Origin: Rhodothermales bacterium
GTDB taxonomy: Bacteria > Bacteroidota > Rhodothermia > Rhodothermales > UBA10348
Assembly: GCA_030830105.1 (NCBI GenBank)
Contig: JAURNP010000145.1
Location: 1-35,280 of the forward strand
DNA length: 35,280 nucleotides
Direction of reading: 5' to 3'
Part shown: positions 18,645 through 23,802 of the stretch, piece by piece
How positions within the stretch are numbered: the first letter of the stretch is position 1
How the letters are laid out: each line of letters begins with the position of its first letter
The notes under the pieces: model-generated
Seen by the model: the letters and a program-made list of their open reading frames with translations, nothing else
Databases searched by the model: none
What the model was told of the DNA's origin: nothing
Position numbers and translations under genes: made by a program

Positions 18645-19175
18645 ATGTCTGCTGAAACCGCCTACTCAAGTGCCCTGTCCGGGCATGTGCTCGTCCTGAA
18701 CCAGGACTACCAAGCACTAAGTATCACCAGTGTCCAGCGAGCCATCGTCCTCGTACTTCTCCAGAAAGCGGAGCTTGTCGAGGCCGAAGAAACCCGTTTT
18801 GTTCGCAGTCCCAGTCAACACATACCTTGGCCGAGCATCGTGCGTTTGAAGGCCTACGTGCGCGTGCCCTACAAACGGGTCTTGCTTACACGTAAGAACG
18901 TGATCAGGCGAGATGGTAGTTGTTGTCAGTATTGCGGATCACACGATCAGCTTACCATAGATCACGTGATGCCGCGCTCACGTGGAGGGAAGGATACCTG
19001 GACGAACCTGGTAGCTGCCTGTGTGCCATGTAATAACCGAAAGGGTAGTCGAACGCCGCAAGAGGCGGATATGCTGCTGAAGCGGAATCCATTTCGACCC
19101 AGCTACGTGATGTACATCCGTGATTTTGTCGGTTCGCTGGAGTCTACCTGGAAGCCGTATCTCTTTTTGTCTTGA
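18645..19175 (+). CDS. HNH endonuclease family protein
   Basis: A 176-residue protein with a C-terminal HNH nuclease domain (about 83-145). Structural zinc CxxC pairs are C94/C97 (CQYCG) and C126/C129 (CVPCNN). The catalytic core is D106-H107 in TIDHVMPRSRGG with N121. The N-terminal half (LVLNQDYQALSI, RAIVLVLLQKAELVE) is typical of a widespread, non-mobile bacterial HNH family of unknown cellular role, so this is not evidence for an intron or phage. GGAGG ends 6 bases before the ATG, one of the few strong ribosome-binding sites in the window. It is flanked by non-coding gaps and is probably monocistronic. Confidence 0.93.
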   Translation: MSAETAYSSALSGHVLVLNQDYQALSITSVQRAIVLVLLQKAELVEAEETRFVRSPSQHIPWPSIVRLKAYVRVPYKRVLLTRKNVIRRDGSCCQYCGSHDQLTIDHVMPRSRGGKDTWTNLVAACVPCNNRKGSRTPQEADMLLKRNPFRPSYVMYIRDFVGSLESTWKPYLFLS

Positions 19176-19832: not shown

Positions 19833-19933
19833 AAGGCAGTCCGCCATTGGGAGGCTTTGGACTACGAAGCAGGATCTATTCCTGATTCACGAGGGATTCC
19901 CCGTCCCGATCCCGGACGTGACTGATCCGATTG

Positions 19934-19941
19934 TATATTTG
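19934..19941 (+). promoter_or_regulatory. Promoter -7 element (TATATTTG) upstream of the TPP riboswitch
   Basis: TATATTTG is an exact match to the Bacteroidota housekeeping -7 consensus TAnnTTTG. Starting transcription about 7 bases later puts the transcript's 5' end at the first paired base of the aptamer, which supports both calls. I do not see a clear -33 TTG at the expected distance. Confidence 0.6.
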
Positions 19942-19948
19942 GGTTCCT

Positions 19949-20019
19949 CGTTGGGGGTGCCCATGTGGCTGAGATCATACCCCTGGAACCTGCCCGGATA
20001 ATGCCGGCGAAGGGAAACG
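19949..20019 (+). promoter_or_regulatory. TPP riboswitch (thi-box aptamer)
   Basis: The conserved thi-box blocks occur in order and at the right spacing: GGGGTGCC (19954-19961), CTGAGA (19969-19974), ATACCC (19977-19982), GAACCTG (19986-19992), GGATAATGCCGGCG (19996-20009) and GGCGAAGGGA (20006-20015). CGTT (19949-19952) and AACG (20016-20019) close the P1 stem. Thiamin diphosphate binding normally shuts down the downstream gene, here a TonB-dependent receptor beginning 134 bases later. A second copy of the palindromic GCCGGC (20046-20051) could pair with the aptamer's own GCCGGC (20003-20008) as part of a switching structure; this last point is inference. Confidence 0.93.
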
Positions 20020-20152
20020 GATTGATGATGAGGCGACGCCGCAATGCCGGCTGCTTCCTGGATGTGCCTCCCGACGAAGACTGGATCATACCCTGCTTTA
20101 CGCTTCTGCGCGCACCGTGTGATCGGCTCTCAGTTACCCAACCGGTCTCGTC
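20020..20152 (+). other. Leader between TPP aptamer and receptor gene (probable expression platform)
   Basis: 133 bases without a convincing gene. They contain GCCGGC at 20046-20051, self-complementary to the aptamer's GCCGGC. I see no strong hairpin followed by a T-run, so control of translation or an alternative fold is more likely than simple intrinsic termination. No Shine-Dalgarno precedes the ATG at 20153. Confidence 0.4.
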
Positions 20153-22729
20153 ATGATGACTCTGCGACTCTTTTCAACGCGGGCCATTGCTCGATCACTC
20201 TTTCTTGGCCTGCTGCTGACTATGCTGGCTGTGAGTGCCATCCTCGCGCCCCATCAATCAGCTCAGGCTTCCGCTCATCTGAATGATCGGATTGATGCCG
20301 CGCTCTCCGGCACGGTCGTGACGGAAGGGGGAGATTTCGTCTCAGGCGCCACCCTACAGTTGTTCGTTCGAGGATCCGGACAGCCTCGAGCGGGCACCGT
20401 CACGGATGCAGAGGGCCGATTCCGGTTCGATCAGGTCGGGCCAGGACAGTACAGCCTCTTCGTTTCCCACGTCGCCTTCGGTTCTCGCAGTATTGCGGTG
20501 AGTATCGATTCAGACCAGGTGGATCTCACGATCCAAATGCGCTCTGGCGTAATGGCCCACGAGGAAGTCGTGGTCAGTTCCGGACGCGCACGGGAGGGCC
20601 TCACCCCGGTCACCGTGACCAATATTTCCAAAGCTGAGCTGGACAGACAGCCGGACATGAAGGATTTGCCGGTACACCTGGCTCGCCAGCCGGCCATCAC
20701 TTGGTCTTCGGAAAATGGTAATGCCATTGGCTATTCCACCCTTCGAATGCGAGGCTTCGGACAGCGACGCCTGGCAGTGGCCATCAACGGTATTCCGCAG
20801 AATGATCCGGAAGAATTCAACGTCTTCTGGATCAACTTTTTCGACATCCAGGGGGCGGTTCAGGACATCCAGATTCAACGGGGTGCCGGCAGTTCGGTCT
20901 ATGGTCCAACCGCCATTGGTGGCGCGATAAATCTCAGGGCGATGCCCTACCTGCCCGACTTTCACGCCATGGCCCAAGTCGGGGCAGGGGCATTCGGGAC
21001 ACGCCGGTTCACTGCAGAGGTAAATTCGGGTCTACTGGCTGATCGATGGATTGCCTTTGGACGCCTCAGCCGACTCGAGTCGGATGGGTACAGGGACTGG
21101 TCCTGGTCGGAATTTTGGCGCTTCTTCGCCGGCGTCACACGATATGGCGATAGCAATTCTCTCACGATCCAAGCCTACGGTGGTCCTCAGAAAGATGGAC
21201 TGGCCTATTCAGGCATTCCAAAGGCTGCGAACGAAACAGCGATCGACGATGGGTTCGGTGGAACGATTGATCGGAAGTACAACTTCTCTGCGTTTGACCG
21301 GGACGTGGAGAACTTCCATCAACCTCACGTCGAACTCCACCATGAGTGGGATATCCGCGACGGACTCTCGTTCAACCAATCGCTGTTCTGGGTGAAAGGA
21401 GAAGGGTATTTCGATTTTGGAGGCACGTTCCGGAGTGCGGATTACCTGCGACTCCCGGATGGAACTGTGGCTCCCGGGGAAGAGGCACTTCCGCTATTCC
21501 TCAGCCGGCCGGATCTAACCGTCCTATTTCGTGCCTACCTGGATCAGTGGCAGGTAGGCTGGATGCCTAGTATGACATGGCAAGATGAGGTCAGCACAAC
21601 CACCGTCGGAGCCGAAGCACGCCTCCATCGCAGCCTTCGCTGGGGCCGCGTCCAGGAATCGAACGGGCTACCGTCCTCTGTCGTGGGGTCGGACGCGAAT
21701 GCGCGTGTGTATTCTTTCAACGGCGAAAAAGCGATCGCCTCCCTCTACGGATCGCACCTGCGCCGCTGGGATAATCGATGGGCCGTACAGGGCGATTTCC
21801 AGGCTACTTGGCGGCAGTATCGCGTCTATGATGAGGCATTTTTTGGCACCTCTTTTTCGAAGCCGTTCGTGTTCTTCAACCCACGAATTGGTGTGACCTG
21901 GCGTCCGGAGCAGCCTTTCAGCGCATTCGGATCAATCGCGCTGGCCAGTCGGGAGCCGCGCATGAAGACGCTTTACGACGGAGAGGAAGCCGGTAATGGC
22001 TTTGAGCCTCGCTTCGAAACAGACGCGAGCGGTAATCTCGATACGGATAATCCGCTGGTGGAGCCGGAGCACCTGCTCGACCTTGAGTCGGGTATACGAC
22101 TCAGCCGCGAGGACTGGAAGCTCGCGGCTGGCGCATTCTGGATGGAATTCCAGGATGAAATTGTCCCATCAGGTGGACTCGATCAGTATGGTGTCCCGCG
22201 CACGGGGAACGCCGAGCGTACCCGTCACATCGGACTGGAATTCGATGGCGAGTGGCGTCCCGCTCTCGCTGTAACCGTGTCGGCAAATGCGACATTCTCG
22301 CGCAACCGTTTCATTGATTTTGAGGAGTTCGTCTTTACCGGTGCCTCAACAGAGCGCCTGGATCGCGCGGGGAATACCATCGCCGGTTTCCCTTCACGTA
22401 GCGGCAATCTGGGCGTGGACTGGCGACGTGGCCCGTTTTCACTTTCTGTCATGAGCTCGTGGGTCGGAGAGCAATTCGTCGATAATGGAAACGGCCGAAA
22501 TGCGGCAGGAGAGCAGATGGACGATCTGGTAGTGGACGCCTTCATGCTTATCGACTCCAGTGTCCGTTGGAGCATGCAAAAGCGACATCGGATCGAAGTC
22601 AGCTTGGACATCAATAACATCCTCAACGACCAGGTCCTTACCTACGGAAACGTATCGGTTGTTGGACCGCAGTTCTTTCCTGCAGCCACACGCCACCTGT
22701 TCTTGTCTACGAAGTTGACCCTGCGATGA
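20153..22729 (+). CDS. TonB-dependent outer-membrane receptor, predicted thiamin transporter
   Basis: An 858-residue outer-membrane receptor. A signal peptide (residues 1 to about 38, ending AQA) is followed by a carboxypeptidase-regulatory-like domain (about 47-130: LSGTVVTEGGDFVSGATLQL, TDAEGRFRFDQVGPGQYSL), then the plug (about 135-260, from EEVVVSSGR to QIQRGAGSSVYGPTAIGGA) and a beta-barrel. The last residues are STKLTLR, with no terminal aromatic residue. The family imports large or scarce nutrients using TonB energy. The TPP riboswitch just upstream indicates thiamin, its phosphates or a precursor moiety as cargo, as for the riboswitch-linked receptors of Bacteroidota (Omr1/OMthi). No inner-membrane thiamin transporter (PnuT type) or thi gene is adjacent, and the next gene is convergent. 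Confidence 0.92.
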   Translation: MMTLRLFSTRAIARSLFLGLLLTMLAVSAILAPHQSAQASAHLNDRIDAALSGTVVTEGGDFVSGATLQLFVRGSGQPRAGTVTDAEGRFRFDQVGPGQYSLFVSHVAFGSRSIAVSIDSDQVDLTIQMRSGVMAHEEVVVSSGRAREGLTPVTVTNISKAELDRQPDMKDLPVHLARQPAITWSSENGNAIGYSTLRMRGFGQRRLAVAINGIPQNDPEEFNVFWINFFDIQGAVQDIQIQRGAGSSVYGPTAIGGAINLRAMPYLPDFHAMAQVGAGAFGTRRFTAEVNSGLLADRWIAFGRLSRLESDGYRDWSWSEFWRFFAGVTRYGDSNSLTIQAYGGPQKDGLAYSGIPKAANETAIDDGFGGTIDRKYNFSAFDRDVENFHQPHVELHHEWDIRDGLSFNQSLFWVKGEGYFDFGGTFRSADYLRLPDGTVAPGEEALPLFLSRPDLTVLFRAYLDQWQVGWMPSMTWQDEVSTTTVGAEARLHRSLRWGRVQESNGLPSSVVGSDANARVYSFNGEKAIASLYGSHLRRWDNRWAVQGDFQATWRQYRVYDEAFFGTSFSKPFVFFNPRIGVTWRPEQPFSAFGSIALASREPRMKTLYDGEEAGNGFEPRFETDASGNLDTDNPLVEPEHLLDLESGIRLSREDWKLAAGAFWMEFQDEIVPSGGLDQYGVPRTGNAERTRHIGLEFDGEWRPALAVTVSANATFSRNRFIDFEEFVFTGASTERLDRAGNTIAGFPSRSGNLGVDWRRGPFSLSVMSSWVGEQFVDNGNGRNAAGEQMDDLVVDAFMLIDSSVRWSMQKRHRIEVSLDINNILNDQVLTYGNVSVVGPQFFPAATRHLFLSTKLTLR

Positions 22730-22778: not shown

Positions 22779-23666
22779 TCAGGTCATCAATTTCATGCAG
22801 AAGACGGATCCTCCTGATTTGAGGTATTCGTCCGTATCGACTTCGATCACTTCGAATCCGTGATCGCGAAGTGCCGTGTTCGTTTTAGTACACCCTCGCT
22901 GGATGACCACGTGTTTTCCGTCGGGAGAGTGGGCATTGCAGGCGAACAGCTCACGCGCTTCCGTCTCAGGCGCTTCTATGACGCGTGGAAAAAATCGCCT
23001 GATGAGCGCCAACCCTTCTTTCGTGTATGCTGGAGGGTAGATCAGGGCTGTGTCCTCATTCAGGATGCACAGGCAGGTGTCCAAGTGGTAGAACTCGGGA
23101 TCGTCCAACTGAAGAGCGATGACAGGAGTATCCAACCCTTGCGAAATCGTGTCATAAACGGAAATGTCCGTGCGGAAGCCGTGTCCTCCCCACAAAAGCC
23201 GCTTTCCACGGTGCCAGAGCGCATCTCCCATGCCCTCAAAGTCGATATCGCCGTGATATATCTTGTCAAATACATCCCATCCGCGATCCGCAAACCACGC
23301 TTCGAAGTGCTTGACCTCGCCGGACCGCTGCGCGGCGTGCATCTTGCTCAGTATGATCCCTTTCGACCCATCCGTACGCAGGAAGGGAAGCGTTTGATTG
23401 GCACAGAACACCATGTCCGGTTGGCCAGGCATTCCCTCAACGACGTCAACGGGAATGCCGCAGCGCGCGAAGGCCTCTTTGAGGTCATCCCACTGCTGCC
23501 GTGCCCTGTTTTTGTCGACCGATCCAATATTGCCCGCCATGTGCGGATTGATCACATAGTCGATGGAGAAGTGATCTGGAGTCGTCATCACCAGCCGTGA
23601 GGCCGGAGGCATATGGGGCAACTGATCCAGCTCGAAATCGAGCTCGGACACTCGGGTGTAGACCAT
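22779..23666 (-). CDS. Arginine deiminase-superfamily (amidinotransferase/DDAH-like) enzyme
   Basis: A 295-residue cytoplasmic guanidino-group-modifying enzyme of the pentein fold. The presumed catalytic residues are E144 in GDIDFEGMGDAL, H194 in FYHLDTCLC and the nucleophile C290 in SGGSVFCMKL. NPHMAGNIGSVD and GMPGQPDMVFCANQ near the N-terminal half are typical of the dimethylarginine dimethylaminohydrolase-like group (COG1834). The true substrate (arginine, dimethylarginine, other guanidines) cannot be read here. The ATG at 23666 was chosen: AGGA lies 6 bases upstream, and the 22 residues of open frame before it look non-coding. It lies 137 bases beyond the exporter-lipoprotein genes on the same strand and may be the end of that operon. 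Confidence 0.88.
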   Translation of the reverse strand: MVYTRVSELDFELDQLPHMPPASRLVMTTPDHFSIDYVINPHMAGNIGSVDKNRARQQWDDLKEAFARCGIPVDVVEGMPGQPDMVFCANQTLPFLRTDGSKGIILSKMHAAQRSGEVKHFEAWFADRGWDVFDKIYHGDIDFEGMGDALWHRGKRLLWGGHGFRTDISVYDTISQGLDTPVIALQLDDPEFYHLDTCLCILNEDTALIYPPAYTKEGLALIRRFFPRVIEAPETEARELFACNAHSPDGKHVVIQRGCTKTNTALRDHGFEVIEVDTDEYLKSGGSVFCMKLMT

Positions 23667-23802
23667 GGACGTCCTGTTATCCTGCAATTCTGAAGGAGTA
23701 CCGTGACATCGATTCGAGACAAAGACAGGCACGAGGCCTGGCTTTCAACGGTCCGAATCGATCGGCTCTCAAAATTAGGAATCCACGCCCTGAAGCCAAA
23801 CC

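Follow-up and report, generated by a model that had tools for sequence, protein, structure and literature searches.

A TonB-dependent receptor under a TPP riboswitch in a Rhodothermales bacterium: a candidate uptake unit for a vitamin B1 building block

What does an outer-membrane receptor import when its gene lies behind the only TPP riboswitch of its genome? This question is raised by a locus from a Rhodothermales bacterium, which we analysed within a window of 35,280 nt (the whole stretch of DNA studied). An earlier note had proposed that a TPP riboswitch here controls the import of thiamin or a precursor, and had suggested a search with the Rfam model RF00059. That covariance-model search returned a single Rfam match in the window:

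19943 to 20032, plus strand: TPP riboswitch aptamer (RF00059), 65.4 bits, a full-length model match and the sole copy in the genome

The match spans the whole model (1-105) with an E-value of 7.6e-11 and lies above the gathering score of 54.3 bits. The thi-box blocks described earlier are present, with the core motifs CUGAGA, ACCU, CCGG-UAAU-CCGG and GAAGGGAA all seen in the covariance-model alignment, and the distances that the note gave from promoter element to aptamer and from aptamer to receptor are correct. A genome-wide search of the assembly (2.5 Mb, 221 contigs, 91% complete) found no further TPP riboswitch. We predict that this aptamer binds TPP and thereby lowers expression.

The gene that follows encodes a TonB-dependent receptor with these features:

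20153 to 22729, plus strand: TonB-dependent outer-membrane receptor, 858 aa (Pfam domains, conserved family of 28 rows, AlphaFold model)
20303 to 20539, plus strand: CarboxypepD_reg-like N-terminal domain (PF13620, residues 51-129)
20603 to 20926, plus strand: Plug domain (PF07715, residues 151-258, 52.6 bits)
21155 to 22621, plus strand: TonB-dependent beta-barrel (PF00593, residues 335-823, 106.5 bits)

The 858-residue protein recognized in the earlier note is complete, and each of its three domains scores above the Pfam cut-off. Just ahead of the Plug, at about residues 138-142, is a TonB-box-like sequence motif, EVVVS, that is conserved in the 28-row consensus. The AlphaFold model (pLDDT 82.8) is a plug-and-barrel TonB receptor whose best fold match in the PDB is PqqU (9c4o, E 1.4e-48, 15% identity). 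Because a fold search of this kind matches all TonB receptors, the PqqU match does not identify the cargo. A sequence search of solved structures returned generic TonB receptors only. None of the NCBIfam receptor models had its cut-off passed by the 858-aa ORF, so we assigned the receptor to no known cargo class; the best partial matches, far below their cut-offs, are to siderophore and heme receptors.

No same-strand gene follows the receptor, since the next ORF (22779-23732) runs on the minus strand. The receptor therefore stands alone, as had been claimed. We rejected the downstream gene as a functional partner: what comes next is either encoded on the opposite strand or unrelated. The minus-strand ORF itself is dimethylargininase/arginine-dihydrolase-like (215 bits, below the equivalog cut-offs), and a minus-strand ORF of similar size adjoins the receptor genus-wide. 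Elsewhere in the window, positions 18645-19175 on the plus strand encode a small HNH endonuclease of 176 aa, for which the best NCBIfam likeness, far below cut-off, is the HNH part of IscB/Cas9.

We examined how widely the arrangement is conserved using a class-wide sample of 146 genomes. All 17 sampled members of the window's family carry exactly one TPP riboswitch, and it lies directly before a receptor orthologue in each of the 16 family loci examined, the window included. These orthologues are 49-86% identical to the window's receptor. The same receptor type is found behind the riboswitch in families f3, f4, f5, f7, f14 and f15 and in one f6 genome. Most of the closest named relatives are MAGs that bear the label Rhodothermales, Rhodothermia or Bacteroidetes/Bacteroidota; three others are labelled Ignavibacteriae, and each of these has an RF00059 match just upstream of a receptor that is 32-35% identical to ours. 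In a tree of 42 riboswitch-linked receptors, the window's type forms one clade of 28 rows. The TPK-bearing families f16-f20 contribute two other, well-separated clades, which indicates that different receptors came under TPP riboswitches in this class. One relative (L064) has the receptor and no detectable riboswitch. The conserved association across many genomes and phyla strongly supports the prediction that this gene encodes a receptor for vitamin B1 or a precursor under TPP riboswitch control.

Two further observations concern TPP riboswitches in the class at large. Thirteen of the 146 genomes, from f7 and f12, have no detectable TPP riboswitch, and these include f12 genomes with ThiC. In L144, L146 and L152, from other families of the class, the riboswitch precedes a gene that reads as ThiM-like, a different salvage strategy.

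The riboswitch has another target in relatives that keep thiC. ThiC was found in 23 of the 146 genomes, all from the same order as the window. In every ThiC-bearing genome with a listed riboswitch position (13/13), the riboswitch lies 468-541 nt before the ThiC domain. The receptor is the target in 27 of the 33 genomes of the order that lack ThiC and have a resolved riboswitch target, and in none of the 13 ThiC-bearing ones, counts that come from genomes that are not phylogenetically independent and that concern the riboswitch target only, rather than receptor copies elsewhere in ThiC-bearing genomes. The remaining six ThiC-less riboswitches belong to family f6, and several of them appear to lead to a THI5/NMT1-like protein or TenA. 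Since the riboswitch precedes thiC in all 13 thiC-keeping relatives with a listed riboswitch position, the receptor occupies the place of thiC.

The THI5/NMT1-like protein deserves separate mention. It has 307 aa and no obvious signal peptide, and its gene (L119 1601-2521 and relatives) lies directly under the TPP riboswitch in thiC-less f6 genomes. In f10 genomes, for example G112 and G045, the same protein is encoded immediately upstream of thiC. Candidate roles are an HMP synthase or a binding protein.

These patterns bear on whether the cargo has anything to do with B1. The siderophore and heme receptors among the partial NCBIfam matches and the generic fold matches would suit an iron chelate, heme or other unrelated cargo, with the riboswitch as a coincidental neighbour. 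Retention of the pair across families and in the Ignavibacteriae-labelled relatives at 32-35% identity, and the exclusive alternation of the riboswitch target with thiC, make this explanation very improbable.

We then considered which B1-related compound the source genome could use. ThiC and thiamin pyrophosphokinase (TPK) are each absent from all 21 family genomes, and TPK was found nowhere in the sampled order, as against 72 genomes outside it. A search of the sampled genomes of the window's family (f1) with one f6 protein as query, rather than the whole NMT1 family, found no THI5/NMT1-like protein. Genes for the other steps are present in the source genome: ThiG, TenI, ThiD and a ThiO-like oxidase on contig 68, TenA on contig 84, ThiE on contig 148 and ThiL split over two contigs. 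Absences from this genome refer to an assembly that is 91% complete. The cell can probably produce its own thiazole, couple it with HMP-PP and phosphorylate TMP, and the pyrimidine (HMP) half of B1 is probably beyond its synthetic capacity. The genome appears to hold neither a known HMP source nor a known direct use for thiamin.

With TPK and ThiC absent and thiazole synthesis, ThiD, ThiE and ThiL retained, a pyrimidine precursor fits the genome better than thiamin does. We therefore favour, with moderate confidence, the reading that the locus is a TPP-repressed uptake unit for a vitamin B1 building block, an HMP-type pyrimidine rather than thiamin. The earlier proposal of thiamin or precursor import is thus borne out in its broader form, a B1 or precursor receptor, and weakened for thiamin as such by the lack of TPK and ThiC. 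A rather doubtful alternative is that intact thiamin is the cargo, the proposal made for Omr1/OMthi, and that it is split by TenA or phosphorylated by an unrecognised thiamin kinase before ThiL acts. The locus shares its architecture with OMthi (PMC5613172), and the basal f15 relative L153 lies in a TPK-bearing genome. Against it, TPK is missing from the family and the sampled order, and the retained thiazole synthesis would be wasted on an input of whole thiamin.

The main conflict with a pyrimidine cargo comes from genera g3 and g4 of the family (G024, G034, G150, G151), which have no ThiE and no TenA and keep ThiL. In the two of these genomes sampled for ThiG, it is absent (G024) or represented by weak matches only (G034). 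Only in G034 is the riboswitch placed (L038), and there the receptor still follows it. HMP would not be enough for a ThiL-only cell, which would need TMP, or thiamin plus an unknown kinase; these relatives thus also count towards intact thiamin, in which the two halves are already joined. Either orthologues carry different cargoes, or recognition is of the pyrimidine ring and extends to thiamin or TMP. This conflict is why our confidence in the cargo is moderate.

Thiamin phosphates are another candidate, with TMP or TPP imported and TMP passing straight into ThiL. ThiL is the one thiamin enzyme found in nearly all family members, including those without ThiE, as this explanation would predict. 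It is nevertheless improbable: it leaves the retained ThiG, ThiD and ThiE unexplained, it needs an inner-membrane phosphate-ester transporter and none was identified, and one coastal study found dissolved TMP to be mostly too low to quantify (PMC10881298).

We looked for genes that might act with the receptor. A PnuC-type gene was rejected as the inner-membrane partner because it is unlinked, adjoins a tRNA-editing gene and has PnuC as its best model; no such gene was found in the receptor-bearing genomes G081 and G120. On contig 68 of G000, a TonB protein gene (L103 4245-5063) follows thiD on the same strand at a distance of 177 nt. A TonB gene adjoins thiD in 9 of 13 family clusters and in none of 8 clusters from elsewhere (Fisher p 0.005, without phylogenetic correction). 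The thiD-adjacent TonB protein is a possible dedicated energiser of the receptor. Only tentatively do we put forward a fuller version of the pyrimidine reading, in which HMP and its aminated or formylated relatives would be the main cargo, the receptor would be governed by the riboswitch that controls thiC in relatives, and the thiD-adjacent TonB protein would serve it in part of the family.

How might the riboswitch control the receptor? The leader contains the following elements:

19933 to 19939, plus strand: promoter -10-like element GTATATT, the part conserved among seven genus-level leaders
19948 to 19957, plus strand: 5' strand of P1/P2, UCGUUGGGGG, which pairs within the aptamer or with the anti-aptamer (covariance-model alignment, folds)
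20067 to 20077, plus strand: predicted anti-aptamer, CCUCCCGACGA, complementary to the P1/P2 5' strand (MFE fold)
20073 to 20084, plus strand: GACGAAGACUGG, predicted partner of CCGGUCUCGUC once the aptamer has formed (duplex/permutation test)
20142 to 20152, plus strand: CCGGUCUCGUC, just before the AUG, the predicted masked translation start region

The earlier note had read a TAnnTTTG promoter here. The corresponding letters, TATATTTG, are indeed found at 19934-19941, but conservation across the genus is limited to (C)GTATATT, and only the window has the TTTG ending. We therefore rejected TAnnTTTG as the promoter. GTATATT keeps a nearly constant spacing before the aptamer in the seven genus-level leaders compared, and this spacing is more variable in other family members. 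Transcription would start at P1 or just before it; the leader measures about 205 nt.

The unconstrained MFE fold pairs UCGUUGGGGG (19948-19957) with CCUCCCGACGA (20067-20077), an arrangement incompatible with the aptamer. Free-energy folding favours this anti-aptamer state by about 5-11 kcal/mol when ligand is absent. In a permutation test that swapped P1 strands among 31 leaders with differing P1s, pairing with the leader's own P1 was better overall (p 0.007 for the 31 loci, 0.048 for 21 representatives), and a 7-nt P1 probe gave no significant result in this pairing test (p 0.07-0.10). Complementarity between GACGAAGACUGG and CCGGUCUCGUC was supported within the genus (permutation p 0.007, 7 sequences). 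Forcing the aptamer increased AUG-proximal pairing in 6 of 7 sequences, and most relatives then formed a start-masking helix of the same kind, with L033 as an exception. In the window's own best aptamer-forced fold, the start is masked by a neighbouring segment, a different partner from GACGAAGACUGG. The whole-leader MFE was not more stable than that of shuffled sequences (z 0.54), so we did not use overall folding energy as evidence. The anti-aptamer and start-masking pairings are predictions only, based on modest permutation values and free-energy folding, and they suggest a mutually exclusive expression platform for translational OFF control by TPP.

TPP riboswitches use both transcription termination and start masking. 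The anti-aptamer by itself leaves the read-out unspecified, and a leader of this length would be in keeping with transcription termination, Rho-dependent or intrinsic, in place of start-codon masking. We judge termination unlikely, given that no intrinsic terminator was found between the aptamer and the receptor start and that start-proximal complementarity is conserved in the genus.

Our preferred reading, a pyrimidine importer controlled at translation, would work as follows. HMP, or a pyrimidine that TenA can convert such as AmMP or FAMP, would cross the outer membrane through the receptor using TonB, and ThiD, ThiE and ThiL would build TPP from it and self-made thiazole. Possible roles for TenA are the conversion of aminopyrimidine breakdown products and the splitting of thiamin. 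Abundant TPP would stabilise the aptamer and release GACGAAGACUGG to cover the start codon, stopping translation; at low TPP, the anti-aptamer helix would form and leave the start more open.

The pairing of a TPP riboswitch with a TonB receptor is already known in other bacteria. This locus adds to it a pattern of thiC replacement, the lack of TPK and, from these, the prediction of a pyrimidine-precursor cargo. HMP auxotrophy is described in one published account (PMC11452348) as the commonest B1 dependence in marine microorganisms, and dissolved pyrimidines occur at picomolar levels (PMC10881298). If the cargo is HMP-type, this receptor would carry a B1 precursor across the outer membrane by an energy-coupled route. 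Its gene would then serve as a marker in metagenomes, and the locus would illustrate clearly how a receptor can replace a lost enzyme under one riboswitch.

We compared the locus with known systems; a literature search turned up nothing that linked Rhodothermales to thiamin, auxotrophy and TonB. By architecture, the closest system is Omr1/OMthi, in which a TPP riboswitch likewise immediately precedes the gene for a TonB-dependent receptor. OMthi (BT2390) of Bacteroides thetaiotaomicron has this arrangement and is required for growth on low thiamin when biosynthesis is deleted, and its transcript is unchanged by thiamin (PMC5613172), a result that would fit translational control. B. thetaiotaomicron combines de novo thiamin synthesis with pnuT-tnr3, whereas our source genome lacks ThiC and TPK, and its receptor stands alone under the genome's only TPP riboswitch. 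The partnership of PnuT and TPK, usual in the gut Bacteroidetes operon and not strictly defining, was not found in the source genome. The proteins also differ in size, at about 740 aa for OMthi (as implied by the deletion coordinates in the 2017 paper) and 858 aa here. In marine SAR86 and Flavobacteriales MAGs, omr1 encodes a TonB-dependent receptor with a nearby TPP riboswitch and is listed for potential B1 transport (PMC10881298); these are other taxa, and the annotation is for B1 rather than the pyrimidine precursor suggested here. PqqU (YncD), the TonB-dependent PQQ receptor of Escherichia coli, is a precedent for a TonB receptor with a small organic cofactor as cargo, and its likeness to our receptor, at 15% identity, lies in a fold common to all TonB receptors and is uninformative on cargo. 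Finally, in the thiC-less marine Pelagibacterales, a TPP riboswitch adjoins the gene for the pyrimidine-vitamer importer ThiV (PMC10881298). ThiV is an inner-membrane sodium:solute symporter, whereas the gene in our window encodes an outer-membrane TonB receptor.
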